Source: an uncultured Thiotrichaceae bacterium (GTDB lineage: Bacteria; Pseudomonadota; Gammaproteobacteria; Thiotrichales; Thiotrichaceae). Taken from it: a stretch of DNA of 64,000 nucleotides. A model generated the notes under the pieces. That model was not told the origin of the DNA, ran no database searches, and worked only from the letters and a program-made list of their open reading frames with translations. The position numbers were made by a program, and so were the translations under genes. The stretch lies in contig CALAMO010000012.1 of the NCBI GenBank assembly GCA_937925855.1, forward strand, positions 62,001-126,000, read 5' to 3'. Positions 28,149 to 50,117 of the stretch are shown in pieces (position 1 is the first letter of the stretch; every line of letters begins with the position of its first letter).

Positions 28149-29489
28149 TCATTCATCTGCCTTCTGAGCCTTAGCAACAAAAATGGCGCAGAAAACAATG
28201 AATACCACCTGGTTGAACGGTGTATGCAGGTTAAAATCAACCAGTTCGTGTAGTAGGAGCAGTAGCAGGCTGATACCAGCCGCTACTCGAATAAATTTCA
28301 TCTCCGTCCACTTTATTTTTCTAAGTGAAAACCAGCTTTTTAAATAGATAAGCAGTGCAAAAATTAGAATTATTGCGCCAATAATGCCGGTTTCAAACAG
28401 TAGCTCAAGATAATCGTTATGTACGTGATTAATAAATCTAGCCTGTTCTACAGGCTGTAGCGTCGCATACACTTCCTGAAAAGTGCCTACGCCTGACCCA
28501 ATAGGCCAGAAGGTTTTGATGCCGGTGATAGCGTGCGTGAAGAACTCCCAACGCGCATCTTCGAATGGATTGATAGCAATGAAGCGGTTGAGTGCAGAGA
28601 CGATGCCAACGCTCATGGCAGCGCCAACGCTAGTGACCAATACGATGCCCATGATGCCTGCGCTTTTCCAGCCGCCCACCGGCAAGGCAAAGGCCAGTAA
28701 CGACAATAACATCGCTAATACCGTGAGCGCGATACCTGCGCGTGATGTGCTGAACAGCGCCGCACAAACAAACAGAATCACCAGCAGCGCGAGGCCCAGT
28801 ACATTGACTAGGCTGTATTGATTATCAGTGGCCCTGCTGTTGAGTTGGCTGAAATAATTAGCCAATAAGCCCAGGCTAATAGGCAGCATCATGTACATCA
28901 AGGCAGAAAAATGGTCTCGATTCAGGTAAGTACCTGCGGCTGTTCCCGCTGGGTTGTCAAAGAAAGCCCATTGGTCTAGGCGGGTGGAAAACTGGATGAC
29001 GCCTAAAATCCCTTGAACAGCAGCGACGATTAATAGCAGGATCAGCAGGTATTTTTTCAGCCGGTCGGTTTGCAGGGCAACGGAAACAAATAAGCTGATC
29101 AAAACCAGAAGTAGAATCAAGGATGAGACGGTTCTTTCGCGCACTAGGCTGGCGCTGAGAGCAGGAGACTCACCGTTAGCTTGCAGCCACTCGATCGCGG
29201 GCGCGAAGCGTTCTCGCCCTGACAGGCTTGACCACTGTTCAAACGACAGGGGGAGGAGGTAGGCCGCAGTGCCTAATACTAAGAACAGCAGAAATAACCA
29301 GACGAGCACACCCAGGCCATAGCGGCTAGACCGTGTATGCCCGCAGCATAAGATGAGTAGCTGTATCCCACCCAGCACTTCGAGGATGAGTAGGGAAATC
29401 GCACTTTTCCCACTGGCATACCAGGGAATGCATAAAATCATGAGTGCGGACAGGGCGAATAGCAGGTGGGGGCGCGTTAACCAACTCAT
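28149..29489 (-). CDS. O-antigen ligase / Wzy-like polysaccharide polymerase family membrane protein
   Basis: This 446-residue protein has about 11-12 membrane segments and the Wzy_C/O-antigen-ligase region. The large periplasmic loop contains the conserved pattern around GIKTFWPIGSGVGTFQEVY ... FINHVHNDYLELLFETGIIGA. The HNDYLEL motif with Arg/His in the loop is typical of the ligase/polymerase superfamily. It is the last gene of the polysaccharide run, with a 4-bp overlap with the TPR gene, so the two are co-translated. A second Wzy-like protein is encoded at 44.2-45.4 kb, so this one may ligate or secondarily polymerise the glycan. Confidence 0.88.
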   Translation of the reverse strand: MSWLTRPHLLFALSALMILCIPWYASGKSAISLLILEVLGGIQLLILCCGHTRSSRYGLGVLVWLFLLFLVLGTAAYLLPLSFEQWSSLSGRERFAPAIEWLQANGESPALSASLVRERTVSSLILLLVLISLFVSVALQTDRLKKYLLILLLIVAAVQGILGVIQFSTRLDQWAFFDNPAGTAAGTYLNRDHFSALMYMMLPISLGLLANYFSQLNSRATDNQYSLVNVLGLALLVILFVCAALFSTSRAGIALTVLAMLLSLLAFALPVGGWKSAGIMGIVLVTSVGAAMSVGIVSALNRFIAINPFEDARWEFFTHAITGIKTFWPIGSGVGTFQEVYATLQPVEQARFINHVHNDYLELLFETGIIGAIILIFALLIYLKSWFSLRKIKWTEMKFIRVAAGISLLLLLLHELVDFNLHTPFNQVVFIVFCAIFVAKAQKADE

Positions 29490-30784
29490 TGTTCCTGCTC
29501 CGCTGCAATTTGTTGTTCTATAGGGGGTGTTGGGTCGCGGGTGATACGGATATCATCAAACCAAATGGATCCACTAAAGGTATGTTTGTGTGAGAAGCGG
29601 CTGCTGGCTTCCAGACGGATAAGTTGCACCGGACAATCTGTAGGCACCGTGAATTTATCGCTGACGTTTTCCCAGGATGAGCGTCCTTGCAGTGCGAGGG
29701 ATTCGAGCAGCGGTTCTGGCCGCTGGGTGTCTCCCCCGATGCAGCGTATGCGCCATGATAAGCCTTCGGGATTTTTGAGTCGATTGAGTCGATAGCGGTA
29801 ATCCAATAGGTAATGGCCCGGCATGAGGGTGAGGCGCTGGCTAACATGGCGAAAGTTGATTTTTTTGTTGTTGAACAGCACTCTGAGTGCTCTGCGACCA
29901 CTGACGCCGGTTGTATTGGCGGTGTTAATGCGCATGCCCTTGCTGCGGCTGATGAGCCAGTCAAACCCGGTATTAAAACGATTACCTTCAAAACCACCGT
30001 CGAAGATAAGCCCGCTGAGTTGCAGTTCGCGTTTATCTAAACCGGATAGCCAGAGGAAATTAGCGGCGGCCCACTGCTGTTCCTGTAGCAGCCGATTAAC
30101 GAATAAGCGCCTTTCTGTCTTAGAAAGAGTGACTTCGGACTCGGTTCTCGCTTGGTAAATCGTGTTAAGCAGGGCGGTGTCCACTTTTTCCCGAATCATA
30201 TGGGCGTAAAAGCTGTCCCACCACTTCGGCGGGTTCTCAAAGATCGAACTGAATAACGTGAATCCATTGGGGTTCTGAATGAGTTGGAGTAAATTTGGAT
30301 AAATGGCGCTGCGCAATTCTGCGGTGTTGAGGCGTATCAGTAACCGATTCCACTCCTCAATGACTTTATCCCAGCGCTCCTGTTGCAGCCAGTAGGCGGC
30401 GATATGCCTACGTGCTTCCGCTCTGGCAGGCGAATAGTCTGCTGCTAGCGCTAACACTTCCTGCGTTTTTTTGGGCTGCTTGTTGGCGGTGTAAATGCTA
30501 ATCAACTGTGCGAAGGCTTCGCCATTAATGTTTTCCGAGCGTAAAGCCCGCAGCGTATAGGTTTCCGCGGTTTGCGGATCGTCGTCCGCCAGCGCTGCAT
30601 GTGCCTTCGCCAGCCAAGTATCCGGGGGAGCAACCTGCCAGGGTGTTGGATTTTCATTCCAGCCGACGTCGTAGAAGTCCCCAGGAACACGTCCACCTAA
30701 GCGGTAGCTCAGGCTGCCCCAAATAACCAGAATGGCCAGGAAAATACCCAGTAAACGAATGGGCCATACCGTAATTATTGACAC
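29486..30784 (-). CDS. Membrane-anchored TPR-like protein of the polysaccharide locus
   Basis: This 432-residue protein has one N-terminal membrane helix (about 5-25, VWPIRLLGIFLAILVIWGSLSY). A helical TPR-like region follows (about 55-165: LAKAHAALADDDPQTAETYTLRALRSENINGEAFAQLISIY ...). The C-terminal domain has beta-type segments (about 250-420, GLIFDGGFEGNRFNTGFDW ... GSIWFDDIRIT) that resemble carbohydrate-binding jelly-roll folds. It overlaps both neighbours by a few bases (10 bp with the pseudokinase gene, 4 bp with the ligase-like gene). A scaffold or glycan-binding role at the inner membrane is plausible, but I do not recognise a named family. Confidence 0.75.
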   Translation of the reverse strand: MSIITVWPIRLLGIFLAILVIWGSLSYRLGGRVPGDFYDVGWNENPTPWQVAPPDTWLAKAHAALADDDPQTAETYTLRALRSENINGEAFAQLISIYTANKQPKKTQEVLALAADYSPARAEARRHIAAYWLQQERWDKVIEEWNRLLIRLNTAELRSAIYPNLLQLIQNPNGFTLFSSIFENPPKWWDSFYAHMIREKVDTALLNTIYQARTESEVTLSKTERRLFVNRLLQEQQWAAANFLWLSGLDKRELQLSGLIFDGGFEGNRFNTGFDWLISRSKGMRINTANTTGVSGRRALRVLFNNKKINFRHVSQRLTLMPGHYLLDYRYRLNRLKNPEGLSWRIRCIGGDTQRPEPLLESLALQGRSSWENVSDKFTVPTDCPVQLIRLEASSRFSHKHTFSGSIWFDDIRITRDPTPPIEQQIAAEQEQ

Positions 30785-32130
30785 AAAAAGCCCCCCCCCG
30801 GGATTAATTTACCGTTAACATCCCGTGCGTTCGGGTGATAACCCATCACATTAACCTGCCCCTGTTGCTGGCATGTTGCCATACCCTGGGCTTTTTTATG
30901 GCTGGGTACCGGGCCAAAGGCGTTAGGATTGCGCCAGCTGATAATCTTCTGTTGCGTGCGTGCTAGGGATTTGCCGATAGTCATTTGTGGGGCTTTTTCA
31001 ATAGAATAGTGAGTTCGTGCCGCGGTTTCTGCCCGCTTGGTGGTGGCCACAAGTTCGAGTGGTTGCGTTTTGTGCGGAGGTTTAGCCGCTGTTTCGGCGG
31101 GCTGCGGCGCTTGGCGCAGACTACCTGCTGCAGTAAACGGCTGTTCTGCAGGGGTTGAGGTTGTTTGGCGATAGTGATGATGCCCGGCGATAACCGTAAG
31201 GATGGCTAATCCTGCTATCAGCACAGGGTAGACTATTTTGTAGGTAAGTTCAGCGCTTACTTTAGGGGCTGGATCAACGAGATACAATAAACGTTCGGGA
31301 GATTCCGGGCGTTTAGCGCGCCTGAAAGCCAAGCCTAAATACAGGGCCTGCCAGTTTTCTTCCGGCAATTTGATCACTGGGTTGGGTATGCTTTCCTTAA
31401 ATGCCGCTTGAATTGAGCTGTCTTCAATAAACGGTAGGTAGCCATTAAGCAGCTGGTACAGCAGTACCGCGATAGCGAAGGTGTCATCGCTGGCGACGGG
31501 GACCTCGCCCATCGCCGTTTCGGGACTCAACGCTGGGGCGTGTAAGGTCAGCCCATGGGGCTGTTTTGTTTGCTGGCCCGTAAGAAAAATATGATAGGCG
31601 ATGACGACGGGTTCGTTGAGCAAATAAGCCTGTCTTGTGCTGGGCTCATAGCTTATCGCGCCTGCTTCAATAAAGGCGTAGCCTGAAGCCATCGGTGTTT
31701 TTTTTGTGGCTTTAATAACAGATTCCGCAATGCTGATCGCCTTAGCAGGCGGATAACCAAACCGTCCGATCTGATTAATGTCTGTTTGTAACAGGGCACC
31801 TTGGAAACCCGAGACAACAAACCAATACTGGTCGTTGTCTACCCCAAAATCATTGAGGTATAAATGGCTGCGGGCGGGGCCTTGATGATAGCGGCTAAAC
31901 ACCTTTTTCAGGACGGCCGCAAACTCAACATTTTGGGTGAGTGCCGTATTGACTATGCCTATCGTTAACTCGGCTGCTGCCTGATTGTGACGAATGGTTT
32001 TAACATCGCTGCCTCGGTAGAAGGTAACTAAAGCGGTAGACGCCAGTAAAGCATGCAGGAAATAACGGTCTTCACTCAGATAAAAACCGGTGAAGACGTG
32101 TTCGTTCTGGTAAACCGCAAGTGCCGTCAT
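30775..32130 (-). CDS. Membrane pseudokinase-like protein with C-terminal GYHP/IPGGGFLC domain
   Basis: This 451-residue protein has a degenerate protein-kinase-like N-terminal region. Residues 199-234 (PALSPETAMGEV ... DDTFAIAVLLYQLLNGYLPF) match the APE-to-subdomain-IX part of Hanks kinases, but no HRD, DFG, glycine loop or catalytic lysine is recognisable. One membrane helix follows (297-316, YKIVYPVLIAGLAILTVIAG), then a Pro/Thr-rich linker. The C-terminal module (383-451) has two Cys (420, 450) and ends GGGFLCQ. The same module ends the lipoprotein at 36160-36540. The topology puts the kinase-like part in the cytoplasm and the module in the periplasm. It directly follows wzc. Confidence 0.78.
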   Translation of the reverse strand: MTALAVYQNEHVFTGFYLSEDRYFLHALLASTALVTFYRGSDVKTIRHNQAAAELTIGIVNTALTQNVEFAAVLKKVFSRYHQGPARSHLYLNDFGVDNDQYWFVVSGFQGALLQTDINQIGRFGYPPAKAISIAESVIKATKKTPMASGYAFIEAGAISYEPSTRQAYLLNEPVVIAYHIFLTGQQTKQPHGLTLHAPALSPETAMGEVPVASDDTFAIAVLLYQLLNGYLPFIEDSSIQAAFKESIPNPVIKLPEENWQALYLGLAFRRAKRPESPERLLYLVDPAPKVSAELTYKIVYPVLIAGLAILTVIAGHHHYRQTTSTPAEQPFTAAGSLRQAPQPAETAAKPPHKTQPLELVATTKRAETAARTHYSIEKAPQMTIGKSLARTQQKIISWRNPNAFGPVPSHKKAQGMATCQQQGQVNVMGYHPNARDVNGKLIPGGGFLCQ

Positions 32131-32144
32131 AGGGGGGTGCGTGA

Positions 32145-35100
32145 CTAAGCGGCATCAAGATGCTTCTGCTCGTTGCCGTAGTTGTAATATTCGTAATTGT
32201 AGTTATAGCCGTAGCCGCTGCCTTGCCGGGTCTTAGTCGCCACAAAACCAATGATGTTCGTTCGGGACTGATACAGGCGTTTTAGTGAACCCAGCAGCAC
32301 CTGCTTCTTGGTATCGCCCATAGAAACAGCAATCATAGTGGCATCTGAACGACTCGAAATGACCAGTGCATCCGCGAGCCCAATCACCGGCGGCATGTCC
32401 AGTACGATGACATCAAAGGTCTTATCGATACGCGCCATATCGTATAAAGCGTCCAGGCGATCACTGCTTAATAGCTCAACGGGATTAGGTGTCGTCGGTC
32501 CCGCAGTGACGACATAAACATTGGGAATCTGACAGCTTTGTGTCACTGACTTAATACTGTCTTGCCCGGTCAAATAATTAGCCAACCCTTTGCTGTTATC
32601 CAGACGCAGGCGTTTATGGACCGAGGGTTTGCGCAGGTCGGTGTCGACCAGTAAAACCGTATTGCCATCATTGGCAAAGGTGGCCGCAATATTAATGGCG
32701 CTGGTTGATTTACCTTCGGAAGGTGACGAGCTGGTGATGCCGACGACCGCAGGCGCACCGTCTCGGGTTGAGAATTTTAAATTAGTGCGTAATGATCGAT
32801 AGGCCTCGGCAAAGGCGGAGCGCGGATCAGTTTGTGCCATTAACGCCAGGTTCTCAGCTTTTTCTTTAGCGCGGGGAATAATGCCGAGCAGCGGCAGGCC
32901 ACTGCTGATTCTGCTAAGTTCATCCGTATTCTTAATGCGGTCATCAAGGAACTCCAGCAGGAAGGCCACCACAGTGCCCAAAAACAAACCCAGTACCGCA
33001 CCCAGCATTAAATTCAGCTGCGTGTTTGGCTTGTGTTTGCTAAAGGGGATAATCGCTTCGTCAACGACTGCGATATTATTGTTACCAATACCGCCGGCGA
33101 TACCAATCTGTTTCTGGCGATCCAGCAGGCCAGTATAAATATTGCGAATACTGTCCAGCTCGCGTTTTATTTCATTCAGGCCAACATTTTGTTCACGCAG
33201 CGTGACCGATTTGATTTTCTGTTCTTCCAGCTGTTGGCGTATCGCGTCTTCCTGCTCAATGGCGGCGATCATGCGGCCTTTTAGGCCATCTTGTACCGTG
33301 GCGCTAATAGTCGCCGTTTCTAGAATGATCTGATTTTTCAACTCAGCGATGCGTTGCTCTAAGGTGATTTTATTATTCGCATCTGAGGCCCGTGTTTCGC
33401 GCGCGATTTCAACTCTTAGCTGATCAATTTGTTGTTTCAGATAGGACTGGGTGCCGGTTTGCAGGGTGCGTGTTTCACGCGCAATGTCGATACGCAGCTG
33501 ATCGATTTTCTTTTTAAGGTAGGTGCGATTGCTATTGGTAATACTGCTGGTTTCTCTAGCGATATCCGTTTTAATCTGGTTGATCTGTTCCAGCAAGTTG
33601 GCACGAGTATTTTGGGTGACTGCCCGGGTCTCCTGGGCAATATCCTGTTTTAATTGATTAATCTGTTGGGTTAAGCTGTTGCGCACCGAGGCGTTTTCTT
33701 GCACGATTTGCTGTTTTACTTCGTTTATTTTTTGGCGCAGCTGCACCATGAGCGGATATGCCGGTTTATATACTTGTGCTTTTTCTTGGTATTGACTTTC
33801 AAGTTGTGACAACTGATTTTTGAGGGTTCTTTGGATAGAATTTCCGTCATAACCACTATTGCTACTTTGTCCTCCTTGTAATAGAGCTTGTAGTTGCGCT
33901 ACCCGCTGCTTCAATGTCTGAATAGTAGGGTTTTTGAAAGACTCAGAGGCGCTTATTTCAGCCTGATATTCACTTTGTAATTGCGCGAGGCGTCCCTTTA
34001 GCGTGCGAATCACGGGGTTCTCAATGGCTCTTGGTGAAGACAGTTCGCCCTGGTAGTCGCGCTGTAATCTTGCAAGCTCCTGTGTCATGGAGCGGATGAC
34101 TGGGTTGTCGCCTGAACGGGATGCGGTGATTTCAGCCTGATATTGACTCTGCAGCTGTGCAAGCCGCTGGCGCAAAGTACGTAAATTGGAATTATCGAAT
34201 GAGCTGGACGTGGTCACTGCTGCTTGATATTTGCTCTCTAATTCGGCGAGTTGTTTCTTTAGGGCTTGTACCGTGCTATTGCCCAAAACCTTATCGGCGC
34301 TGTCGGAGTCGCGAGTTTCCGTATAAGCGATTTCGGCCTTGACCCTTTCGGCTTCAGCTTTAGTGAGCGACGCACTGAGTTCACTTAGTTTTCTATTCAC
34401 TAATGACTGGTTGTCTTCTGTGAGTACAATGCCTTTTTCTTTGGCATAGTCATTAAGTTTTTCTTCGGCCTCCAATAAGCGACTGCGTGTTTTGATGATT
34501 TCCTCTTGCACGCGGTTTTCTGCATAAGATGCCGCGTCAATACGTCGTTCTAGATTCACCTCAATATAGTTGCTGGCGAGGGTGTTCACGATGGTGGCGG
34601 CCCGTTCTGGGTTTGTATCATCATAATGCACGGTGACGATCTGTGAATTTTTAACCGGTGCAATGGCGAGCCTCTCCAGCAGCTGGTCTTCTATCGGGCG
34701 TTCGCCTAATAGTTTTTTCTCATCGGTCGCATCAGCCGCGAAGGCATCTTGCTGGATGTCTTCTACAGTGTCGTTATTGCCGTCCGCATTATTGTCGCGG
34801 CTACCTGAAAATAATGCGGTGAACTGTTGTTGGAGTTCGCCCAGCCAGGACGATTCGGTACTGGCCAGTTTTTGCTGCCGGAAAATGGATTCAATGCCGA
34901 GGTCTTCTATCGTCCGTTTTGCCAGCATGCGGCTTTTTAGTAATTCATACTGCGTTTGATAAAAGTCTCTGCGGTTAACATTGCCGCCTTTGGATTCAAC
35001 GTCGTATTCCAGCACCTGCGCTTCTTCTTTGATTTGTATCGTGGTGCTCGCGCGATAAATCGGCTGCATCATCAGAGTGACGACTAATGAGGTGACAAAA

Positions 35101-35297
35101 ACTAGGGCCGCAATCGCAATAATCAGCCCTTTGCGCCGAATCAGTACCTGCCACAGTTCGCGCAGGTCGATTTCATCGTCGTCGTCATCCCGCTCAGCCT
35201 CTTCCAACGGATGTCCATAAGGCCTGATTGCCCCCTGATGTTGCACGGCGGGTAGATGATTGCCCGGCAGTGCGGTGATGTTATCTTCATTGTTCAT
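32145..35297 (-). CDS. wzc: Wzc-like polysaccharide co-polymerase and BY-tyrosine kinase, enlarged by tandem coiled-coil repeats
   Basis: This 1050-residue inner-membrane protein controls chain length and export of the polysaccharide. The Wzz domain (about 42-130, TM near 56-77) precedes a long periplasmic coiled coil. A second TM (near 755-775) leads to the cytoplasmic BY-kinase with Walker A (SSSPSEGKST, near 858-867), Walker A' (LLVDTDLRKPS, near 882-892), Walker B (VIVLDMPP, near 963) and a C-terminal tyrosine cluster (GYGYNYNYEYYNYG). Typical Wzc proteins are about 720 residues. The extra 300 or so come from six 29-residue repeats (about 344-500) and five or six 26-residue repeats (about 544-680). 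It follows wza by 36 bp. Confidence 0.93.
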   Translation of the reverse strand: MNNEDNITALPGNHLPAVQHQGAIRPYGHPLEEAERDDDDDEIDLRELWQVLIRRKGLIIAIAALVFVTSLVVTLMMQPIYRASTTIQIKEEAQVLEYDVESKGGNVNRRDFYQTQYELLKSRMLAKRTIEDLGIESIFRQQKLASTESSWLGELQQQFTALFSGSRDNNADGNNDTVEDIQQDAFAADATDEKKLLGERPIEDQLLERLAIAPVKNSQIVTVHYDDTNPERAATIVNTLASNYIEVNLERRIDAASYAENRVQEEIIKTRSRLLEAEEKLNDYAKEKGIVLTEDNQSLVNRKLSELSASLTKAEAERVKAEIAYTETRDSDSADKVLGNSTVQALKKQLAELESKYQAAVTTSSSFDNSNLRTLRQRLAQLQSQYQAEITASRSGDNPVIRSMTQELARLQRDYQGELSSPRAIENPVIRTLKGRLAQLQSEYQAEISASESFKNPTIQTLKQRVAQLQALLQGGQSSNSGYDGNSIQRTLKNQLSQLESQYQEKAQVYKPAYPLMVQLRQKINEVKQQIVQENASVRNSLTQQINQLKQDIAQETRAVTQNTRANLLEQINQIKTDIARETSSITNSNRTYLKKKIDQLRIDIARETRTLQTGTQSYLKQQIDQLRVEIARETRASDANNKITLEQRIAELKNQIILETATISATVQDGLKGRMIAAIEQEDAIRQQLEEQKIKSVTLREQNVGLNEIKRELDSIRNIYTGLLDRQKQIGIAGGIGNNNIAVVDEAIIPFSKHKPNTQLNLMLGAVLGLFLGTVVAFLLEFLDDRIKNTDELSRISSGLPLLGIIPRAKEKAENLALMAQTDPRSAFAEAYRSLRTNLKFSTRDGAPAVVGITSSSPSEGKSTSAINIAATFANDGNTVLLVDTDLRKPSVHKRLRLDNSKGLANYLTGQDSIKSVTQSCQIPNVYVVTAGPTTPNPVELLSSDRLDALYDMARIDKTFDVIVLDMPPVIGLADALVISSRSDATMIAVSMGDTKKQVLLGSLKRLYQSRTNIIGFVATKTRQGSGYGYNYNYEYYNYGNEQKHLDAA
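33258..33668 (-). repeat. Coding repeat block B in wzc: five or six 78-bp units
   Basis: The unit is about 26 residues with the pattern QxxQINQLKxDIARETR...N. The isoleucine of the QIxQL motif falls at residues 546, 572, 598, 624 and 650, giving exact 26-residue spacing, with a weaker sixth unit near 677. The DNA copies are diverged but clearly related. Confidence 0.85.
33798..34270 (-). repeat. Coding repeat block A in wzc: six 87-bp units
   Basis: The unit is about 29 residues with the pattern xTLxxRLAQLQSxYQAEIxxSxSxxNPxI. Equivalent positions fall at residues 344, 373, 402, 431 and 460 (exact 29-residue spacing) and near 490 (one residue inserted). The block lies in the predicted periplasmic coiled coil. 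Confidence 0.85.
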
Positions 35298-35333
35298 AGT
35301 TGAAATTATACGTGTCCGCAGTCGTTAATGCCA

Positions 35334-36047
35334 TTAGTTCGCCAGTGAGCGCAGAATATTAACGGGTCCCAGCAGCGTGCCCACTTCGCGCAGCCAATAG
35401 CGGCTGCTAGAGCGGTGAGCAATAATGCGGTCATCGTTTCTGATGTAAGGATCCTTGTTTTTACCGGAGCGTATATCATCTAAGTTCAGGTTATAAGCCT
35501 TCATCTGATCGCCGTTTTTACGGAATAAAACAATTTTAGCGGGATCCGCCAGATTACTGGGCCCCCCAGCCAAGGCCAAGGCCTGAAGTAAAGTCATTTC
35601 ACCCTGAATGGGAAACACGCCGGCTTTAGCCACTTCACCTTCAACAGTCACGCGCTGACTGGTAAATTCCTCAATAGTAATGCTGACCTTAGGATCCTGT
35701 AGGTACTCTTCTCCCAGGCGATTAGCGATTTGTTTCTCCAGCGCAGACTGCGTGAGGCCCTTGGCGCGTACATCACCAATGAGGGCGAGGGAGATATTGC
35801 CACGCGGATCGACGCGCACCTTTTGATCGAGCTCATCCGCCTGAAAGACCTTAATACTCAGCAGATCAGAAGTGCCGAGCGTGTATTCCACTTTGGGTGG
35901 GGTGTAGTCCAATTCTTTTAGATCAGAGAAGATTTTCTCGCCGTCTTCATCGGTGGCATCCGCTGAAAAGCCACCGCCTGCGGTACAGGCCGTCAAGGCT
36001 AAACAAAAAATTAACGCCAGTATGCCGCTATGGGGGATGTGTAACAT
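35334..36047 (-). CDS. wza: Outer-membrane polysaccharide export lipoprotein, Wza/GumB-like (short form)
   Basis: This lipoprotein of the OPX family forms the outer-membrane end of the export channel. I chose the ATG at 36047 because it gives a proper lipoprotein signal with lipobox LTAC (ILALIFCLALTACTAGGG). The longer frame to 36119 has no clear ribosome-binding site. The poly-export domain (DLLSIKVFQADELDQKVRVDPRGNISLALIGDVRAKGLT) is followed by a SLBB-type domain (RVTVEGEVAKAGVFPIQGEMTLLQALALAGG). At 237 residues it is shorter than E. coli Wza (379) and lacks the C-terminal amphipathic helix. It lies directly upstream of wzc. Confidence 0.92.
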   Translation of the reverse strand: MLHIPHSGILALIFCLALTACTAGGGFSADATDEDGEKIFSDLKELDYTPPKVEYTLGTSDLLSIKVFQADELDQKVRVDPRGNISLALIGDVRAKGLTQSALEKQIANRLGEEYLQDPKVSITIEEFTSQRVTVEGEVAKAGVFPIQGEMTLLQALALAGGPSNLADPAKIVLFRKNGDQMKAYNLNLDDIRSGKNKDPYIRNDDRIIAHRSSSRYWLREVGTLLGPVNILRSLAN

Positions 36048-36159
36048 GGTTTTATAAGCCTGTATTGGGGAAGCGGTTAAGAATAAAAAAAGACACTGCG
36101 TGTGGCCAAGGTGCCGCAATGTCGCATCCTAGCCTGCTTTTGGTGTCAAAATTAGGCGG

Positions 36160-36540
36160 CTAGCCGCATAAAAAACCGCCGCCTGGAATAGATTTGCCAT
36201 TGATACCTTGGGCTTTGGGGTGGTAACCGCGTGCTCTTTGTCCGCCCACCGCCTGACAGATGGCAGTGCCTTCTTTCACCAGATTAGCGGGCACCGGGCC
36301 AAACCACTGGCTATTATCCCAGGCCAGTAATTGTGACGGTTTATTGGTCCCCCAGGATACTTTCTGTCGTAGCAGTCTGGGCGGTGTCTGCGCATACGTT
36401 TTGCCAATGGGGAGTCTGTTTGTGCTTGGGCCATTGATTGCTGCTTGGGCGTTCTTAGCGGAACCACCCATGAGATTGTTACAGCCCTGGAGGAGGAAAA
36501 TAGTAAGCGATACGGCTAAAAGGAGGTTAAATTTTTTCAT
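36160..36540 (-). CDS. Small lipoprotein with the GYHP/IPGGGFLC C-terminal domain
   Basis: This 126-residue protein starts with a lipoprotein signal (MKKFNLLLAVSLTIFLLQGC) and has AGGTGA just upstream of the ATG at 36540. The rest (43-126) is a module with IGKTYAQT, WFGPVP, Cys95, GYHPKAQGINGKSIPGGGFLC and Cys125. The same module ends the membrane pseudokinase encoded at 30775-32130. The two Cys could form a disulfide in the periplasm. It is followed by wza with a 112-bp gap. I know no named family for the module; a role in polysaccharide assembly is inferred from location only. Confidence 0.78.
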   Translation of the reverse strand: MKKFNLLLAVSLTIFLLQGCNNLMGGSAKNAQAAINGPSTNRLPIGKTYAQTPPRLLRQKVSWGTNKPSQLLAWDNSQWFGPVPANLVKEGTAICQAVGGQRARGYHPKAQGINGKSIPGGGFLCG

Positions 36541-36806: not shown

Positions 36807-38750
36807 TTAGCTGCTGCCGGATGCAAAGCGTATCTTGGTACTTTCCAGTGGGAGTGGGATAACTTTACGTTCCCGCAACGCCGCATGTTGATAGCCACTG
36901 ACATAATTATTCAGCAGCTGATGAATGGCGGCCATATTATTGTGTCGACAGGCGTGATCTAGTCGATCCAGGGCGGTTTGGTACTGTGGATGGCTAATGC
37001 TTGCTTCATGTGCCTGAAAAATCCGGGGATGCTGCGTGCTAGCTGCACTGTCGCTGCTAATCAGCAGTTCTTCATACAATTTTTCACCGGGACGCAGGCC
37101 GCTAAACTGAATGTTAATATCACCTGTTGGGTGAGTTTCAGTCTTTTCGATCAGTCCGCTTAAGCGAATCATGCGTCGGGCCAGATCGATGATTTTGACC
37201 GGTGCTCCCATATCAAGCACAAAGACTTCGCCGCCCCTAGCCATTGAACCGGCCTGAATCACGAGCTGTGCCGCCTCGGGGATGGTCATGAAGTAGCGAA
37301 TAATATCGGGGTGAGTGACGGTGATTGGCCCGCCCGCTTTGATCTGCTTACGAAATAGGGGCACCACTGAACCGGAAGAGCCGAGCACATTACCAAAGCG
37401 CACCATGCTGAAGGTGGTCGCAGCAGTGTGTTGGGCCAGAGCCTGTAGCCCCAGCTCGGCCATGCGCTTACTGGCGCCCATGACATTGGTAGGCCGTACC
37501 GCCTTGTCGGTGGAGATTAAGATGAAGTGCTCGATCCCGACGCTGTAGGCCGCATTGGCAGTATACCAAGTGCCAAAAACATTGTTGCGAATGCCTTCTA
37601 CTGGGTTTTGCTCGACTAGCGGTACGTGTTTGTAAGCGGCGGCGTGGTAAAGGGTTTGCACGGCATGCTGATCTAACGCCCTTTCAATGAGTGCTTGATT
37701 TTGTACTGAGCCAATCACCGGAATGATGGCAATAGATGTTGTCAAGTCTTGTGCCAGAGTCAGTAATTCTTGTTCTATTTGGTATAGCGCAAATTCAGAA
37801 ATTTCAAACAGTATGAGTTTGTTAGGTTTTAGGTTGATAATCTGGCGACATAGCTCAGCGCCGATTGAACCACCAGCACCGGTGACCATGACGTTTTTAG
37901 TGCTAATACAATGTTGGAGCAAGCCCTGCTCAGGTGCAACAGGGGGACGACCGAGTAGTTCATCAATACTTATTTCACGAATGGCGTCGATGGATTTTCC
38001 GGCTACTAGTTCCGCCATGCCGGGTATTGAGCGTACATGGACAGGTAGGGGTTCCAGGCTTTGCAGGATTTTCTGTCGTCTTTCTATTGAGGCGGAAGGT
38101 ATGGCGAGCAAGATTTGTTTTATCTGGTGTTTGGCGATTAGGTTATCCAGCTCGTCTGGCGCGTGTACTTTTAGGCTGTGGACAAAGGCTTTTTGTAAGG
38201 TGTCGCGGTCATCCAGGAATAAGACCGGGCGGTATTCTGGGCTGTTGAATAAGGCTTGGGCGAGTTGTGCGCCGGATGTGCCTGCGCCGTAGATGGCAAC
38301 GTTGATGCGTTGGCCGTTGTTGTTTTGGGTGAGATGGTAGTAGCGCCTTATTAGGTGTCGGGTGCCGCCTAGGAGTAGGAAGGCTGTGCCGAAATAGATG
38401 ATGTAGATTGAGCGGGGGATGCCTTCTAGGTTGAACAGAGTCGTCGTTAGTACCAGGGCTAGCGCTGAGATTAGGGTGCCTTTGAAGACAGCGTTGATGG
38501 CTTGGTGGCCCAAGAAACGCAGGATGGCGCGGTATAGGCCTAGTTTGGTGAAGATGGGGATGCTGATTAAGGGAGCAATGATTAGTAAGTAGATGCCGTC
38601 GTTTAGATTGGGCGTCCAGGTGCTTAGGCGGAGGGCGAAAGATGACCAGAGGGCAAGGGGTATTAGGGTTAGATCCAGTAGGATCATCACGGTGCGTTTT
38701 TGCCAACGGGGGAGGGTGAAAAATGCGTTAAAAAATTGGGGGAAGTTCAT
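36807..38750 (-). CDS. wbpM: Membrane UDP-GlcNAc 4,6-dehydratase-like protein, WbpM/CapD family
   Basis: This 647-residue protein probably makes UDP-4-keto-6-deoxy-N-acetylhexosamine, the precursor of QuiNAc/FucNAc-type sugars. Four N-terminal membrane helices (about 1-120) are followed by a Rossmann-like regulatory segment (VAIYGAGTSGAQLAQAL). The dehydratase domain has VTGAGGSIGAELCRQI and STDKAVRPTNVMGASKRMAE, where Met replaces the usual catalytic Tyr, as is characteristic of WbpM-type enzymes. It lies downstream of fcl by 14 bp. The first 150 codons use almost only C- or A-ending synonyms, unlike the rest. Confidence 0.94.
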   Translation of the reverse strand: MNFPQFFNAFFTLPRWQKRTVMILLDLTLIPLALWSSFALRLSTWTPNLNDGIYLLIIAPLISIPIFTKLGLYRAILRFLGHQAINAVFKGTLISALALVLTTTLFNLEGIPRSIYIIYFGTAFLLLGGTRHLIRRYYHLTQNNNGQRINVAIYGAGTSGAQLAQALFNSPEYRPVLFLDDRDTLQKAFVHSLKVHAPDELDNLIAKHQIKQILLAIPSASIERRQKILQSLEPLPVHVRSIPGMAELVAGKSIDAIREISIDELLGRPPVAPEQGLLQHCISTKNVMVTGAGGSIGAELCRQIINLKPNKLILFEISEFALYQIEQELLTLAQDLTTSIAIIPVIGSVQNQALIERALDQHAVQTLYHAAAYKHVPLVEQNPVEGIRNNVFGTWYTANAAYSVGIEHFILISTDKAVRPTNVMGASKRMAELGLQALAQHTAATTFSMVRFGNVLGSSGSVVPLFRKQIKAGGPITVTHPDIIRYFMTIPEAAQLVIQAGSMARGGEVFVLDMGAPVKIIDLARRMIRLSGLIEKTETHPTGDINIQFSGLRPGEKLYEELLISSDSAASTQHPRIFQAHEASISHPQYQTALDRLDHACRHNNMAAIHQLLNNYVSGYQHAALRERKVIPLPLESTKIRFASGSS

Positions 38751-38764
38751 TGGAGCAAAGTGTA

Positions 38765-39727
38765 CTAGCGCTTATAGTTCTGTTGATTTTGCAGGAACCA
38801 GTTGTATGTTTGTTGTAAACCTTCTTTTAGGTCAAAATTAGATTGCCAGCCTAGCTTTCTTAGACGACTAACCTCCATGAGCTTACGCATAGTTCCATCA
38901 GGTTTATTGGTGTCAAAAACAACTTTCCCTTTAAAACCAGTGACGTTTTTCATTATTTCGGCTAGTTCAGCAATACTACAGTCGATGCCTGTGCCAACAT
39001 TGATATGCGATAGCATAGGCTGGGTGTGCTGCTTGTAAATGGCTTGATCAAGATTCATCACATAGATACTGGCGGCGGCCATGTCATCGACGTGCAGAAA
39101 TTCGCGCATAGGTTTACCGCTACCCCAGACAACAACTTCTTTATCGCCACGCTGTTTGGCTTCATGAAAGCGGCGCATCATGGCGGGGATAACGTGGCTG
39201 TTTTCCGGGTGGAAATTGTCATTTTCTCCATAGAGGTTAGTTGGCATAACGCTACGATAATCTACTCCATGCTGACGATTGTAAGATTCACACAGCTTAA
39301 TACCGGCTATTTTAGCAATGGCGTAGGGCTCATTGGTGGCTTCTAGTGCGCCGGTTAATAGAGCGTCTTCAGCCATTGGCTGCGTGGCTAATTTAGGGTA
39401 AATGCAGCTGGAGCCGAGGAATAACAGTTTCCGTACGCCTGTTTTGAAGGCTTGATGAATTATATTGCACTCTAACATCAGATTGTCATAGATGAAGTCA
39501 GCGGGGTAGGTATTGTTAGCGTGAATGCCGCCTACTCTGGCAGCGGCTAAGTAAATTTCATCAATATGTTTGGTGCAAAAAAAGTCTTGCACCGCTTGTT
39601 GGCTGGTTAAATCAAGTTCTTTGCGAGTGCGAGTGATTATTTTAGTGTGCGGTTGTTGCTGCAATTGACGCATGAGCGCGGAGCCAACCATTCCGTTATG
39701 ACCGGCTATATAGATGGCCTTATTCAC
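38765..39727 (-). CDS. fcl: GDP-L-fucose synthase
   Basis: Fcl (WcaG) converts GDP-4-keto-6-deoxymannose to GDP-L-fucose by epimerisation and NADPH reduction. The 320-residue SDR has [17 protein letters not shown] at the N-terminus and [21 protein letters not shown]. The catalytic YxxxK is in [14 protein letters not shown], followed by [23 protein letters not shown], which is typical of this enzyme. It overlaps gmd by 8 bp. With gmd, manB and manC it completes the route from mannose-6-phosphate to GDP-fucose, which the GT11 enzyme would use. Confidence 0.96.
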
Positions 39728-40877
39728 GAGCTTGGCTCACCTCAAAACCATGCTCCGTCAACAAACGATCTCGCTTAGCTTGATCAAGGTCGTGCGCTAC
39801 CATGTCCTTCACCATTTCCTGGAAGGTTATTTGGGGCGTCCAGCCAAGCTTTTGCTGGGCTTTTCTAGGGTCGCCAAGTAGGGTTTCGACTTCAGTAGGA
39901 CGGAAGTAGCGAGGGTCAACCGAGACAATGGTTTGGCCAATTTTCAGGTTTTGCTCAGCACCGGAACCCTCACCCCCAGATTCTCTCCCTAAGGGCGAGG
40001 GGAGCAAAGCAGCCACTATCCCTTTTTCTTCAATGCCCGAACCTTCCCATCGTAGGGTGATGCCCAGTTCTGCGGCGGCAAATTCAACAAATTGGCGTAC
40101 TGAGTATTGAATGCCGGTGGCTATCACGAAGTCTTCGGGATGATCTTGCTGGAGCATTAGCCACTGCATTTCGACATAGTCTTTGGCGTGTCCCCAATCA
40201 CGCAGTGCATCCATGTTACCTAAGTAGAGGCATTGGTCTAGTCCTTGAGCAATATGGGCTAGGCTGCGGGTGATTTTTCGTGTGACGAAGGTTTCGCCAC
40301 GGCGTTCGGATTCGTGGTTAAATAGGATGCCGTTACAGGCATACATGTTGTAAGCTTCTCGGTAGTTAACAGTGATCCAGTATGCATAAAGTTTGGCGGC
40401 AGCGTAAGGGGAGCGTGGGTAGAATGGGGTGGTTTCTTTCTGAGGTATCTCTTGTACTAGGCCATAGAGTTCGGAAGTAGAGGCTTGGTAGATGCGGGTT
40501 TTTTTTTCTAGACCGCAAATGCGTACGGCTTCTAGGATCCGTAGTGTACCGAGTGCGTCGCTGTTTGCGGTGTATTCGGGGCTTTCGAAAGAGACGGCTA
40601 CATGGCTTTGCGCACCAAGGTTGTAAATTTCATCGGGTTGTACTTGTTGGACGATTCTGATGAGATTGGTGGAGTCTGTCAGGTCACCATAATGCAGGAT
40701 TAGGTTGCGTTCATCGAGGTGTGGATCCTGGTAGACATGGTCGATGCGTTGAGTGTTGAATGATGAAGCGCGGCGTTTTAGGCCGTGGACTTCATAGTTT
40801 TTCATTAATAGGAATTCTACCAGATATGAACCGTCTTGGCCGGTTACTCCAGTGATTAGGGCTTTTTTCTTTTGCAT
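39720..40877 (-). CDS. gmd: GDP-mannose 4,6-dehydratase with a repeat-derived loop insertion
   Basis: Gmd performs the first committed step to GDP-L-fucose. The 385-residue protein has [23 protein letters not shown], the YxxxK motif ([11 protein letters not shown]) and [21 protein letters not shown], all diagnostic. The loop before VDPRYF normally has a short variable segment; here it reads [15 protein letters not shown] and is encoded by a palindromic intergenic-type repeat (about 39967-40003). The insertion keeps the frame and lies between conserved blocks, so the enzyme may still be active. It overlaps the fusion gene upstream by 22 bp. Confidence 0.94.
39967..40003. repeat. Palindromic dispersed repeat translated within gmd
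   Basis: The plus strand reads CCCTCACCCCCAG ... CTAAGGGCGAGGGGAG, with G-rich and C-rich arms able to pair. Related sequence (ACCCTCACCCC ... AAGGGCGCGGGG) lies between nqrE and nqrF, and a longer inverted repeat of similar flavour lies at 55924-56030. The translated form (PSPxGRExGGEG) is a well-known junk signature of such elements in proteobacteria. Confidence 0.65.
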
Positions 40878-42385
40878 GATATATTTTGAGTACTGGTTTT
40901 GATTTTATCACTACTACCCTTGCCTAATACAGTTTGAATAATGTAGTAGAAGTAGTTGCGAAGTGAAAGATTTGCGAGCATTTCCGCATCGGTTATAGCT
41001 AGTTTTTCTGGGGTAGACATATCGATATTTTGAATTTGAGCAGAGCCGGTAATTCCAGGACGTGTCTTAAAAACACCATATGAAGCACGTTTTTCGATTA
41101 GCTCTTTTTGGCTAGGGAGGCAAGGTCGTGGACCAACCAAGCTCATTTCTCCTTTGAGAACATTCCAGAGTTGTGGAAGCTCATCTATTTTTGTGCGACG
41201 AAGAAAATGACCAAATGGAGTTATTTTGTTGTCATTGACTAGGTGGGTAGCAACAGAAGGTGTTCCGTGTTGCATAGTGCGGAATTTTATAAGTGTGAAT
41301 AAACGTTGTCTCTGGCCGACACGAGTTTGACAGAAAAAAGGAGATCCTGTATCGAAAAAAATTATCATCCAAACTAGTATGAGTATAGGAAAGGAAAGTA
41401 TTATTCCGGCAAATGCAAAGAATATATCTAGTAATCTGATCATATACCTAAATCTATTTGCAGGTTCTAAATCTTTTTCTTTTGCAAGCCAGACACTGGC
41501 AGTTTCTTTGAGTGCTTCATCAACACTAATGGGGGGGCTCCAGTTAAGAGTCAATTTTGTATACTCAATGTCAATTTGCAAATCACTACACAAGCTTTGA
41601 GCAATTTCATTTTTACCGATCAATTTCAAGGTTTTTTCTAGTGCAAATTTCGGCAAGGGTATTAGATTGTTCTGTCGCCCTAAAAATTGCCTGAGTTTCC
41701 TCAGCAAGCGAGTCGTTGAAATGTGCTCATTGTCACTAGCTAGGAAAATTTGATTGGCTGCTAAAGGATTATCAATGCAATTGATGATTAAATCAGTAAG
41801 ATTAAGTACATAAATAAAATTTCTTTTGTTTTGAATTTTCCCAAAAGGAAGAGGAAAATTGCTATTAGATATTTTAATTAGTTGGGAAAATTTTCCTAAT
41901 GAGCCTCCACCATAAATCAATGGGGGGCGTATTATTACAATTTCCATTCCGGTCTGAGCAGAAATGTATTTTAATATGAGTTCAGCATTAAGCTTTGACT
42001 TCGAGTAAAGACTTTTTGGGTTCGGTGTATCTGCATTAGTAAAAGGTTTCTCAGTGGTTGTTGTTCCATTAACGCCTATTGAACTTATAAAGATTAAACG
42101 TTTTACGCCTTCTTTAGCGGCTTCTTTAGCAATTTTTTGAGTTAACAAAACATTAGATTCATAAAAAAAATTTTCTAAAGAAGTAACTTTAGTTGAGGGC
42201 GCGCTTGTACATGCTGCTAAATGAATGACAACGTTAGTCTTTTTCAAAGATGCTAAGTCTTCTTTAGAAAACTCACGTTTAAACTTGCCCTGACTTCTTA
42301 TAATGTTAACACAATGGTACTTTTTTTTAAGTTCAGACGTTAGAGTGGCGCCTAAAAAACCTGTTGCTCCAGTAATACTTATCAT
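40856..42385 (-). CDS. Fused NDP-sugar epimerase/reductase and initiating phosphoglycosyltransferase
   Basis: This 509-residue protein joins two usually separate enzymes. Residues 1-300 form an extended SDR ([16 protein letters not shown]; catalytic YSKSK in [13 protein letters not shown]) like WbpV/WbpK-type reductases or 4-epimerases. Residues of about 315-490 are a monotopic PglC/WcaJ-C-terminal-type phosphoglycosyltransferase: hydrophobic helix [38 protein letters not shown], and the Asp-Glu dyad with [23 protein letters not shown]. It would make and then transfer the first sugar-phosphate to undecaprenyl phosphate. Together with WbpM, the likely sugar is QuiNAc or FucNAc (inference). It is at the edge of the AT-rich block. 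Confidence 0.9.
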
Positions 42386-43296
42386 CTTATTTTCTTTGAT
42401 TTAGTTATTGCCAATAGTAAGCAAGAAAAAAAAAATACGATTTTTTCGGATGTTTTTCTTCTACACAACTTTGATTGAAAAGCTAAGTATAGTAGGCCTA
42501 ATCGGTTAGCACTATGCCAATTTTTGACGAATGGGTTATTTTCCAAACCAAATAGTTTGACAAATAATGATGATTGCTCTATTGCCTTACCACTTAAAAC
42601 AAAATTGATCCTGTAAAAAAATGCTTTCAAGCCTATATTAACGCCTATGCTGTTACTAGTATGTTGCCTGTAATACATTGTTGGTGTTTTATCTATATAC
42701 CAGAAATAGCCATGGGAGCGAGCATAGCTATATATAAACCAATCGTGTAACCATACAAGTTTCATTTTTTGTTTATTTTTAAGGACAAAGTGTTGTATTT
42801 CTACAATTAATTTATTTGTTAAAACAAAAGTGCATCCAGGGCCTGGAGCCTCAAATAGATGATCCCATTTCACTTGAGGTTGAGATTTTATTACTGTTTT
42901 TTTTCTGCCATTTGGCCAAAAAGCGATAACATTGCTTGAATATCCGTCGTAACTACTAGTTTCAAGTATATTTAATGCTTTCGAAATTTTATTGGGGTGC
43001 CAGATATCATCTTGATCTGAAAGTGCAACATAGTCAAACTCAGAAAAGTTAATGTCACTAATTAATCTAAAAAAATTTGATGCGGCTCCATTAAATCTCA
43101 TTCCATAAGGCAGTAAAGCCAGATTTTTTTTAGATGATACAAGTTTGCTTACATATGAAAAAACATCAGGTTCTGATTTGTCAAGACTAATGATGATTTT
43201 TGATATTTCAGTATCTTGTGTTTCAATTGACTCTATCTGCCTTCTAATATATTGTTTATCATTATAAGCAGCTATGATAACTAGTATTTTTTTCAT
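42382..43296 (-). CDS. Glycosyltransferase family 2 protein
   Basis: This 304-residue GT2 enzyme has the usual N-terminal start (ILVIIAAYNDKQYIRRQIESI). Its nucleotide-sugar/metal-binding region is YVALSDQDDIWHPNKI, and an acceptor-side segment is LVWLHDWFIYSYARSHG. This subgroup often resembles rhamnosyl- or related transferases, but donor and acceptor cannot be read from sequence. A 4-bp overlap couples it to the downstream fusion gene. The gene is strongly AT-rich, like the rest of the 41-50 kb block. Confidence 0.88.
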   Translation of the reverse strand: MKKILVIIAAYNDKQYIRRQIESIETQDTEISKIIISLDKSEPDVFSYVSKLVSSKKNLALLPYGMRFNGAASNFFRLISDINFSEFDYVALSDQDDIWHPNKISKALNILETSSYDGYSSNVIAFWPNGRKKTVIKSQPQVKWDHLFEAPGPGCTFVLTNKLIVEIQHFVLKNKQKMKLVWLHDWFIYSYARSHGYFWYIDKTPTMYYRQHTSNSIGVNIGLKAFFYRINFVLSGKAIEQSSLFVKLFGLENNPFVKNWHSANRLGLLYLAFQSKLCRRKTSEKIVFFFSCLLLAITKSKKIR

Positions 43297-43445
43297 GCTA
43301 ATTTCTAATTATATTGATCATTTTAGATTAAGACATATTTGTATGTATGATTAAGAGTTTTTTTCGTGAATTGAAAATATAAGATTCCAATGTTTCTCAC
43401 AGCGTGGGAAACATTTTTTATGAAAGCTAAAAGACTCAATGATTT

Positions 43446-44261
43446 TTAAATCGAAAGCGCATTTTTCTTTAATAATTTTAAAAAAGCTTTTGCTAATGAG
43501 ACCAAAAACAGTAATGGGAACAAAAAAATAGTTTGTCTTATCGAATATTTATAATAAGTTTGCATTTCACCTAATCTCATTCCGATGCTATTAGAGCTAA
43601 GGCCACCTGCACTGTTGGGTTGTCTACCTAAGAACACCAGCTTCAGGTCCAAAAAATATATCTCATTTGATTCAGACAACCTAAGCCATAAATCAAAATC
43701 TTCACAATAAGAAATTTGCTCATCAAATTTTGGATTTAAAGATTTTTTTATTGTCATGCTAGGCGTTACTATTTGATTAGAAAACAATAACTTAAAGTGA
43801 TTGATTTTCCGAATCTTTTTCTCAAATTTTAGATCTGACTTCTTTGTTTGCTTTTTATATGAAAGTGTTGAGTATGAATGAGCAATAATTGAGACTTTAT
43901 ATATATCAATAATCTCATAAATATATTTTAATTTGTTCTCGTGCCAAAAATCATCTGCATCAATAAAAGACAAATATTTTCCGTTTGCTATAGAAATTGC
44001 TAAATTTCTAGCAGAGGATACCCCTCTGTTTACAGTATTCTTGATCAATATTTTCCTAGAGTCGCTTCTGTAAGTTACATATTTATTTAAAATACACTGT
44101 GTATTATCAGTCGAGCCATCGTTGATTATGATAATTTCAATTGCGTTTTTATATCTTTGATGCAAAACTGATTCGATGCATCTAATTAATGTTTTTTCAG
44201 CGTTGAAAACAGGTATTATAACGCTAAAAAAAATATCTTTTTCTTTGTCTGTATAAATCAA
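43446..44261 (-). CDS. Glycosyltransferase family 2 protein
   Basis: This 271-residue GT2 protein has FFSVIIPVFNAEKTLIRCIESVLHQ, IIINDGSTDNTQ, a DxD-type motif in YLSFIDADDFWHENK, and a C-terminal hydrophobic patch (FLFPLLFLVSLAKAFL) that may bind the membrane. Its start overlaps the end of the Wzy-like gene by 38 bp. A gap of 149 bp separates it from the next gene. Specificity is unknown. Confidence 0.87.
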   Translation of the reverse strand: MIYTDKEKDIFFSVIIPVFNAEKTLIRCIESVLHQRYKNAIEIIIINDGSTDNTQCILNKYVTYRSDSRKILIKNTVNRGVSSARNLAISIANGKYLSFIDADDFWHENKLKYIYEIIDIYKVSIIAHSYSTLSYKKQTKKSDLKFEKKIRKINHFKLLFSNQIVTPSMTIKKSLNPKFDEQISYCEDFDLWLRLSESNEIYFLDLKLVFLGRQPNSAGGLSSNSIGMRLGEMQTYYKYSIRQTIFLFPLLFLVSLAKAFLKLLKKNALSI

Positions 44262-47224: not shown

Positions 47225-47955
47225 TGTTTGTTACTTTTAAATAATTCGCTATTTACTTTTTTAAGAAGCATTTTCAATCCAAATTTTTTATAAAAATTAA
47301 TTGTTTTGTTCAATATTAATACTGATTCATTTTTGATTTTAATTATTTTTTTTTCTGGCATGGTGATTGGCTTTGGTATTTCTATGTAGTAATGGAGTAA
47401 CTCAAAAAAATTTTGCTTCTTGATGCTGTCTTTTTCTAGAAAATCAAGTATATATTCTATGTGTTTGATTTTATCTGGTCGTTCAGAAAACCACTCATGA
47501 TATTCTAGATATCTAATCATGCAATCATGAGCTTTACAAGGTACTTTAATTGATGTTTTTTCGATCTCCAAATATACTGACTTTTCAATTACAGAAGAAA
47601 AAAAACATGGTTTTAGTAGAATATTTCGGTATTCAGGTAATGCATCGTATAAGTCAAATCTTAAATTTAATTCTTCGTCAATAAATAGGTCTATATACGT
47701 TTGATTATGCTTTTTTTCTACAATTATAAGTTTTTCCTCAATAATATTTTCATTTAAGAATTGCGTTATTTGATTTGTTAGTTCCTTTATATTAATGCAA
47801 TAGATGTCTAGATCTGAACCAATATTGTACAATGGGAAAATTTTAGAAATCTTAACTAAGCAGTAGTTTTCCGTGGTTAGTGAATTGAAAAGCCTTTGTA
47901 AATTTACAGTTTGTTTTTTTGTTTTCGGTTTTGATGCTATTCTATTATTTCGCAT
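47221..47955 (-). CDS. Unknown protein with nucleotidyltransferase-like GSDLD motif
   Basis: I cannot name this 244-residue protein. Residues of about 35-120 contain YNIGSDLDIYCINI followed by YIDLFIDEELNLRFDLYD. This spacing of acidic residues recalls the GS...DxD...D core of polymerase-beta-type nucleotidyltransferases. The C-terminal half is helical and charged (VPCKAHDCMIRYLEYHEWFSERPDKIKHIEYILDFL). It overlaps the next upstream gene by 19 bp and the fucosyltransferase gene by 4 bp, so all three are co-translated. Possible roles are glycan substituent transfer or regulation, both unproven. The gene is AT-rich. Confidence 0.6.
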   Translation of the reverse strand: MRNNRIASKPKTKKQTVNLQRLFNSLTTENYCLVKISKIFPLYNIGSDLDIYCINIKELTNQITQFLNENIIEEKLIIVEKKHNQTYIDLFIDEELNLRFDLYDALPEYRNILLKPCFFSSVIEKSVYLEIEKTSIKVPCKAHDCMIRYLEYHEWFSERPDKIKHIEYILDFLEKDSIKKQNFFELLHYYIEIPKPITMPEKKIIKIKNESVLILNKTINFYKKFGLKMLLKKVNSELFKSNKQ

Positions 47956-48818: not shown

Positions 48819-48828
48819 TTTATGTCTT

Positions 48829-50085: not shown

Positions 50086-50117
50086 ACTACTTTATATGGT
50101 CTTAATAAAACCTGCTA

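Follow-up and report, generated by a model that had tools for sequence, protein, structure and literature searches.

We have analysed a stretch of 64,000 nucleotides (hereafter the window) from an uncultured Thiotrichaceae bacterium, corresponding to positions 62,001 to 126,000 of the forward strand of contig CALAMO010000012.1 (GenBank assembly GCA_937925855.1). The minus strand of the window encodes a polysaccharide cluster of the Wzx/Wzy type, in the order manB/manC-like, flippase, glycosyltransferases, WbpM/Fcl/Gmd, lipoprotein, wza, wzc, psK, TPR432 and wzy. Two different proteins of this cluster, the lipoprotein encoded beside wza and the membrane pseudokinase psK encoded behind wzc, end in copies of the same small cysteine-containing module. 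Both open reading frames (ORFs) were confirmed where an earlier note on this DNA had placed them. The features of the two proteins are given below; all coordinates are positions in the window, and all the cluster genes listed here and further below lie on the minus strand.

30775..32130, minus: psK, membrane pseudokinase of 451 amino acids with a Hanks (PknB/StkP-like) fold and a C-terminal module (profile of five homologues)
31177..31242, minus: predicted transmembrane segment of psK, about residues 297-318 (hydropathy)
30985..31176, minus: predicted periplasmic linker of psK, of low conservation (homologue alignment and tail comparison)
30778..30984, minus, core 30778-30939: module copy 1, psK residues 383-451 (BLASTP, profile)
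36160..36540, minus: lipoprotein gene, 126 amino acids, ATG at 36540 (LLQGC lipobox, Asn at +2, by eye)
36481..36540, minus: predicted lipoprotein signal peptide and lipobox Cys20 (sequence, by eye)
36163..36414, minus, core 36163-36324: module copy 2, lipoprotein residues 43-126 (BLASTP, profile, AlphaFold2 model)

Pairwise BLASTP of psK against the lipoprotein gave 66 bits and an E value of 3e-18, with 40 identical columns in 107. The local alignment of the two tails scored 166; none of 2000 double shuffles (mean 25.5, standard deviation 4.8) reached this value, the highest score among them being 56. The shared module reported in the earlier note was thus borne out, and each of the motifs listed there was found in the tail alignment. 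These figures, together with the 65 distinct homologous copies described below, refute the explanation that the likeness is a chance resemblance or a low-complexity artefact. The conserved core comprises about 54 residues and follows a looser leader, IG..P...PPRL. psK has exactly two cysteines in its 451 residues, C420 and C450, both within the module, and the lipoprotein carries the lipobox C20 plus C95 and C125 within its module. The genome of the window's own bacterium yielded no third copy at E <= 0.001 (one chance-level match, E 0.6). In a tree of the modules, the psK copy of the window was placed with the first psK modules of its relatives, with weak support (0.41), and the lipoprotein copy grouped with other lipoproteins. 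The two copies are 52% identical to each other, being as close as either is to several others. Recent gene conversion between them was considered and is not favoured, as they group apart in the tree.

Further modules were collected by searches of relatives, of the family and of the class, and by one degenerate DNA pattern run over genome contigs. We have aligned 65 distinct sequences, each scoring at least 45 bits; six copies obtained later were left out (C190 and C192 of genome G430, C17 of G447, C137 of G458 and two in G638). The alignment gave the consensus xWDxPxAFGPVPxxLxxxGDxxC...AxGYHPxAxDxxGxPxPGGG[FY]xC. Residues F8, C23, Y38 and C57 were invariant in 65/65 copies; the DNA pattern demanded the second half of the motif (GYHP, a Gly, [FY] and the last Cys, which includes Y38 and C57) and left W2, F8, FGPVP and C23 free. 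A module was recognised by profile in 46 of the 48 stretches retrieved with the pattern, the exceptions being L083 and L093, and the module of L070 was split across two frames.

The module occurs chiefly in predicted lipoproteins, with one to three tandem copies (three in L092, L099 and L104; two in L066, L069, L080, L086, L095 and L035). A strict lipobox regular expression was passed by 40 of the 53 distinct ORFs, and Asp was found at +2 in 0 of these 40. The expression missed the window lipoprotein itself, whose LLQGC lipobox was recognised by eye and is followed by Asn (not Asp) at +2, which fits the rule for outer-membrane lipoproteins; the protein is a predicted outer-membrane lipoprotein. 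The other 12 of the 13 failures are three ORFs of psK type (L002, L066 and L087), two that are cut or split (L060 and L070), two Smithella proteins resembling ordinary secreted proteins, and five with lipobox-like sites by eye (L053, L054, L055, L068 and L077). A 1093-residue ORF in L089 was set aside as probably read in the wrong frame, as an ABC transporter match sits in another one.

Judged by genome titles, the hosts are mostly beta- and gammaproteobacteria (among them Thiothrix, Thiolinea, Thiodictyon, Thiocapsa, Lamprocystis, Azohydromonas, Vogesella, Rhodocyclus and Idiomarina), with a few alphaproteobacteria and Smithella. The spread is sporadic: with the window's own genome counted each time, the module was present in 9 of 63 genomes of the family, 3 of 369 sampled across the class and 2 of 398 sampled across the phylum. 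An origin from mobile elements was set aside, since viral contigs held no exact match to the module DNA pattern, tblastn with one module relative found no match in phages, and tblastn with that relative or with the window lipoprotein found none in plasmids.

The module is a real domain family, and apparently an undescribed one. The earlier note knew of no named domain with this signature, and none was found in Pfam, NCBIfam, PHROGs or the PDB. Nothing exceeded the curated cut-offs of Pfam and NCBIfam for the window lipoprotein, psK, 16 modules and 10 full proteins, PHROGs returned no match for the window lipoprotein, and the PDB sequences contained no credible match to the module. Designed TPR proteins in the PDB (E 4e-5) were rejected as relatives because in the three matches listed each repeat scored below 8 bits and the E value sums near-identical repeats. 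Among open PMC articles, we found no paper pairing GYHP with a lipoprotein, none on PF14907 and, judged by title and opening of the abstract, no Thiothrix paper on this locus.

Structure prediction, which the earlier note had proposed, gave a confident core. The AlphaFold2 model of the module, obtained from a 59-row alignment, had a mean predicted local distance difference test (pLDDT) score of 83, with 91-98 per block over the core. It is compact, with strands at 36-42, 50-55, 84-88 and 103-106 and a helix at 66-78. A Foldseek search against the PDB revealed no solved relative (best match E 5), and the VIA structure comparison gave 0 of 69 chains with Z >= 2. For so small a domain, such absent fold matches do not prove a new fold. 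On these features the module is most likely a disulfide-stapled periplasmic binding domain: the two Cys, F8 and Y38 are kept in 65/65 copies, the only two Cys of psK lie within it, the predicted model is compact and confident, and the 40 ORFs passing the strict lipobox are devoid of Asp at +2.

We have then examined psK. A profile of five psK homologues matched a PrkC-like kinase in the PDB with E 3.4e-14 over profile positions 18-253, covering both lobes, and PknB with about 1e-9; the window psK alone gave weak matches to PknB/StkP C-lobes. The HRD and DFG motifs are lost in 5/5 aligned homologues and, by eye, the VAIK lysine is gone as well. All five retain the F-helix Asp and the SP within the APE-like motif, and the Glu of the F-helix remains in 2/5. 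The profile match and the absent catalytic motifs confirmed the protein, called a membrane pseudokinase in the earlier note, as a Hanks-type pseudokinase. Its hydropathy peaks at 2.09 in a 19-residue window at 299. Since a predicted transmembrane segment near 297-317 and a poorly conserved linker precede the module, the latter would lie outside the cytoplasm. This hydrophobic stretch and the LLQGC lipobox of the lipoprotein agree, as predictions, with the placement of one module copy on the inner and one on the outer membrane. The AlphaFold2 model of psK, built from 3 sequences, was too poor to be used (pLDDT 45.5).

The PASTA kinases PknB, StkP and PrkC have one transmembrane segment and extracytoplasmic C-terminal domains. 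By prediction psK shares this layout, and it resembles them in its Hanks kinase fold, these being the best PDB profile matches; it differs from them in having no catalytic motifs and in carrying the module as its putative extracytoplasmic part. Pfam gave no PASTA match in the window psK or in L066, and the NF033483 match covered the kinase C-lobe only, far below the cut-off. A second, longer Hanks pseudokinase is encoded in the genome of the window's own bacterium (L144:1249-4368, on G000:C8) in a frame of 1040 residues, with no module detected; relatives of this longer protein, of about 780-970 residues, occur in many genomes of the family.

The gene context of the two module proteins is formed by the following features.

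35334..36047, minus: Wza-like export protein with Poly_export and SLBB, no Wza_C match (Pfam, scanned from 36044)
32145..35297, minus: Wzc-like co-polymerase/tyrosine kinase, 1050 amino acids (blastp match to the L060 protein)
29486..30784, minus: TPR432 (name used here), conserved cassette protein of 432 amino acids, no Pfam family
28149..29489, minus: Wzy/O-antigen ligase family polymerase (PF04932, E 1.9e-15)
36807..52918, minus: sugar-nucleotide, sugar transferase, glycosyltransferase, flippase, manC-like and manB-like genes of the polysaccharide cluster

The wzc, psK, TPR432 and wzy genes are separated by gaps of at most 14 bases or overlap, and therefore probably form one transcript. A promoter and terminator scan of 35200-36900 found sites no more numerous than in shuffles. 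The window Wzc was assigned through its blastp match, the L060 protein, on which the WZC_N, GNVR and Wzz domains were scanned; a Walker A-like PSEGKST and a Tyr-rich tail were read by eye in the window Wzc. Ten proteins encoded at 40856-52918 were scanned, of which 8 had Pfam matches, and the names WbpM, Fcl and Gmd (36807-40877) were assigned from sequence only. On the opposite strand, at 26827-27399, lies a dual-specificity/tyrosine phosphatase-like gene, a possible Wzb analogue. A small secreted protein encoded at 27463-28023 shows a weak match to the LapA retention module, and its relatives adjoin module lipoproteins in L026, L028, L029 and L036.

Within the window's family, the module shows a strong link to a single Wzx/Wzy cassette. 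Among genomes of the window's genus, psK with the module follows wzc in G000 (one module) and in G005 and G007 (two modules each). In G001 and G003 wzc is followed by a psK that is truncated by the contig end; another contig of G003 begins with the module-bearing end of a psK, followed by TPR432, wzy and a module lipoprotein. Some module was present in 5 of the 9 genomes of the genus (G000, G001, G003, G005 and G007). Two of the four genomes without it are less than 75% complete, the comparison of psK neighbours excludes G004 and G006, and in G008 psK sits on a 3.9-kb contig without wzc. In Thiothrix lacustris, G009 and G077 the cassette reads wza-wzc-TPR432-wzy, with a module-less psK behind it, and T. 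lacustris and G076 have a separate module lipoprotein about 1 kb from the module-less psK. A common non-module tail closes psK in T. lacustris, G009 and G076; in the T. lacustris genus (L027:9712-11283, L059:10629-12230 and L138:8111-9613) it reads NENTFVVGS...PQGDNVFIVMPD or near it, where the window's genus has the module. In G022 the lipoprotein adjoins wzy, TPR432, wzc and wza, and psK is not there.

An association with polysaccharide loci, anticipated in the earlier note, was assessed in 44 genomes, 42 reached through the DNA-pattern loci plus G076 and G293; 8 belong to the family and 36 lie outside it. A module had to lie within 10 kb of a Poly_export, Bac_transf or Wzy_C marker. The association stood within the family, where 6 of 8 genomes complied (upper-bound expectation 0.64, P 5e-6), a figure inflated by shared descent. 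It was weak outside, with 4 of 36 genomes (expectation 1.57, P 0.07), a count lowered by the many short contigs. Poly_export alone lay within 10 kb in 4/8 and 1/36 genomes, respectively. The four outside cases are CTSoil_122, where a module lipoprotein adjoins YjbH about 5 kb from Poly_export, Simplicispira, a Chromatiaceae metagenome-assembled genome (MAG), whose Wzy match is fragmentary and lies at the end of a contig, and a Rhodobiaceae MAG with a borderline Wzy match.

The neighbour scans outside the family cover part of the loci and revealed varied company. A giant RTX-repeat protein is encoded directly beside lipoproteins with one or two modules at four loci (L069, L073, L080 and L095, which were grouped on account of this very neighbour), and L095 also has an autotransporter beside the module lipoprotein. 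An NTP_transf_5 nucleotidyltransferase is the neighbour at four loci (L062, L103, L074 and L092), and an ABC exporter at no fewer than three (L062, L103, L158 and probably L157). Tail-collar-like proteins were seen by eye upstream of L103 (in L153), and the module lipoprotein of L079 adjoins a Big_9/cadherin-type protein. At some loci the neighbours have housekeeping functions, examples being a recG-like helicase and an M3 peptidase, hence gene neighbourhood is not always informative.

Given the weak link outside the family and the RTX, ABC/nucleotidyltransferase and housekeeping neighbours there, a general assignment of the module to the Wza-Wzc machine is not supported. From the weak enrichment and the RTX or ABC/nucleotidyltransferase neighbours, docking around Wza-Wzc would therefore be at most a local use. 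Since lipoproteins of other bacteria have the module as well, it probably serves for binding in the envelope in general and was not built for this machine alone. It is quite possible that nothing about it is specific to the exported glycan: the module would then be a generic surface-lipoprotein domain binding a common envelope component (peptidoglycan or lipopolysaccharide), and the psK copy a lineage-specific acquisition, like PASTA on PknB. Its sporadic presence across unrelated proteobacteria and the varied neighbours outside the family are what such a domain would be expected to show, but the close association with a single cassette within the window's family and the occurrence of the module on both psK and the lipoprotein within the same genomes argue against this explanation.

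This linkage was also seen with TPR432, which matched in 28 of the 63 genomes of the family, two of them (G004 and G006) over about 140 residues only. The module was present in 8 of these 28 genomes and in 1 of the 35 without a TPR432 match, a difference (Fisher P 0.008) obtained with a TPR432 profile for which five of the seven source proteins came from module-bearing genomes, and with a test that, like the distance tests, ignores shared descent. The lone module genome lacking a TPR432 match, G001, is 81% complete and fragmented. The make-up of this profile, the shared descent and the weak enrichment outside the family weigh against a role of the module in the cassette, and so do three observations within the family. 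In G076, about 39 kb separate the psK-lipoprotein pair from the closest Poly_export gene; the genomes of G009 and G077 contain the cassette and psK, yet no module was detected in them; and psK matches occur in 40/63 family genomes versus modules in 9/63, so that most psK relatives are without the module. These 40 are mostly longer paralogues or remote matches, few of them with the module.

The presence of two copies at one locus, on opposite membranes by prediction, also raises homotypic docking, in which the psK module pairs with the lipoprotein module and bridges the membranes beside the Wza-Wzc channel. Tandem copies, up to three in some lipoproteins, could likewise self-pair. On the other hand, the ORFs read from the 36 outside genomes contained no pseudokinase fusion and most of these genomes have one module gene, so that cross-membrane pairing is unlikely as a general role; also at this locus we regard it as distinctly improbable.

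The lipoprotein could instead serve Wza. The window Wza fits class 3 of the outer-membrane polysaccharide export (OPX) proteins, having Poly_export and SLBB and no Wza_C match; in PMC9603273, this class is defined by Poly_export plus SLBB without Wza_C and described as having no outer-membrane-spanning part. An outer-membrane lipoprotein encoded beside such a Wza deserves attention for this reason. It might be an accessory of a Wza without its own membrane-spanning part, with a role like that of GfcB near the GfcD barrel; GfcB, of the group 4 capsule, is likewise a lipoprotein at a polysaccharide export locus according to PMC9603273, and was compared by role only. The absence of a Wza_C match in the window Wza and the module lipoprotein of CTSoil_122, beside YjbH and near Poly_export, are in line with this role. 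However, the CTSoil Wza carries Wza_C, and the class 3 proteins studied in PMC9603273 pair with a beta barrel, which leaves this role with very little probability.

Two kinds of catalytically degraded kinases in export machines offer points of comparison for psK. EssB/YukC is a transmembrane pseudokinase in the type VII secretion machine (PMC12599244) and, like psK, is of Hanks type, with degraded catalytic motifs, and membrane-spanning. It differs in belonging to other bacteria and another machine and in its extracytoplasmic part, and the available part of PMC12599244 mentions no such module. EcpK and HfsB are dead proteins of tyrosine-kinase fold proposed as co-polymerase scaffolds in Wzx/Wzy pathways (PMC12004946), and share with psK the encoding of a catalytically dead kinase with such a pathway. 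EcpK has the bacterial tyrosine-kinase (P-loop) fold and a partner without kinase domain (PMC12004946), whereas psK has a Hanks-type fold and a putative periplasmic tip, and the window Wzc keeps its kinase motifs by eye. psK thus falls outside the EcpK-type pseudokinases, which have a P-loop fold without Walker motifs.

As a whole, the explanation that we tentatively put first is a binding tip on both an outer-membrane lipoprotein and a pseudokinase scaffold, coupled to Wzc. The envelope domain of about 54 residues, stapled by one disulfide, would be a periplasmic binding tip, carried mostly by small predicted outer-membrane lipoproteins. Members of the window's genus also have the domain fused to a dead Hanks-type kinase, whose gene stands between wzc and that of the polymerase; a predicted transmembrane helix and a probably flexible linker connect the two parts. 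The pseudokinase would serve Wzc as a scaffold from the cytoplasmic side, a function like the one proposed for EcpK/HfsB with their co-polymerases. In the periplasm its module would touch the same partner as the outer-membrane lipoprotein holds, most likely the passing polymer or the Wza ring, and export status would thereby be coupled to Wzc. A role in the cassette is suggested by the two copies flanking wza-wzc, the position of psK after wzc in genomes of the genus, the Fisher test and the EcpK precedent, as well as by the module-less psK with a separate module lipoprotein close by in T. lacustris and G076. A more elaborate version of this binding-tip explanation, which we hold to be unlikely, would be a periplasm-spanning feedback device, in which both modules read the polymer or the Wza ring and signal channel loading to Wzc without phosphotransfer by psK.

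Altogether, the window presents a small and apparently new domain family, and a new architecture at an export machine of a known kind. To our knowledge, how Wzc activity is matched to polymer transport through the periplasm is an open question in the field. A dead Hanks-type kinase with a putative periplasmic tip that recurs on a lipoprotein of the same locus offers a direct handle on this matching, and the module, apparently unnamed and present in lipoproteins of many proteobacteria, is a candidate for domain libraries.

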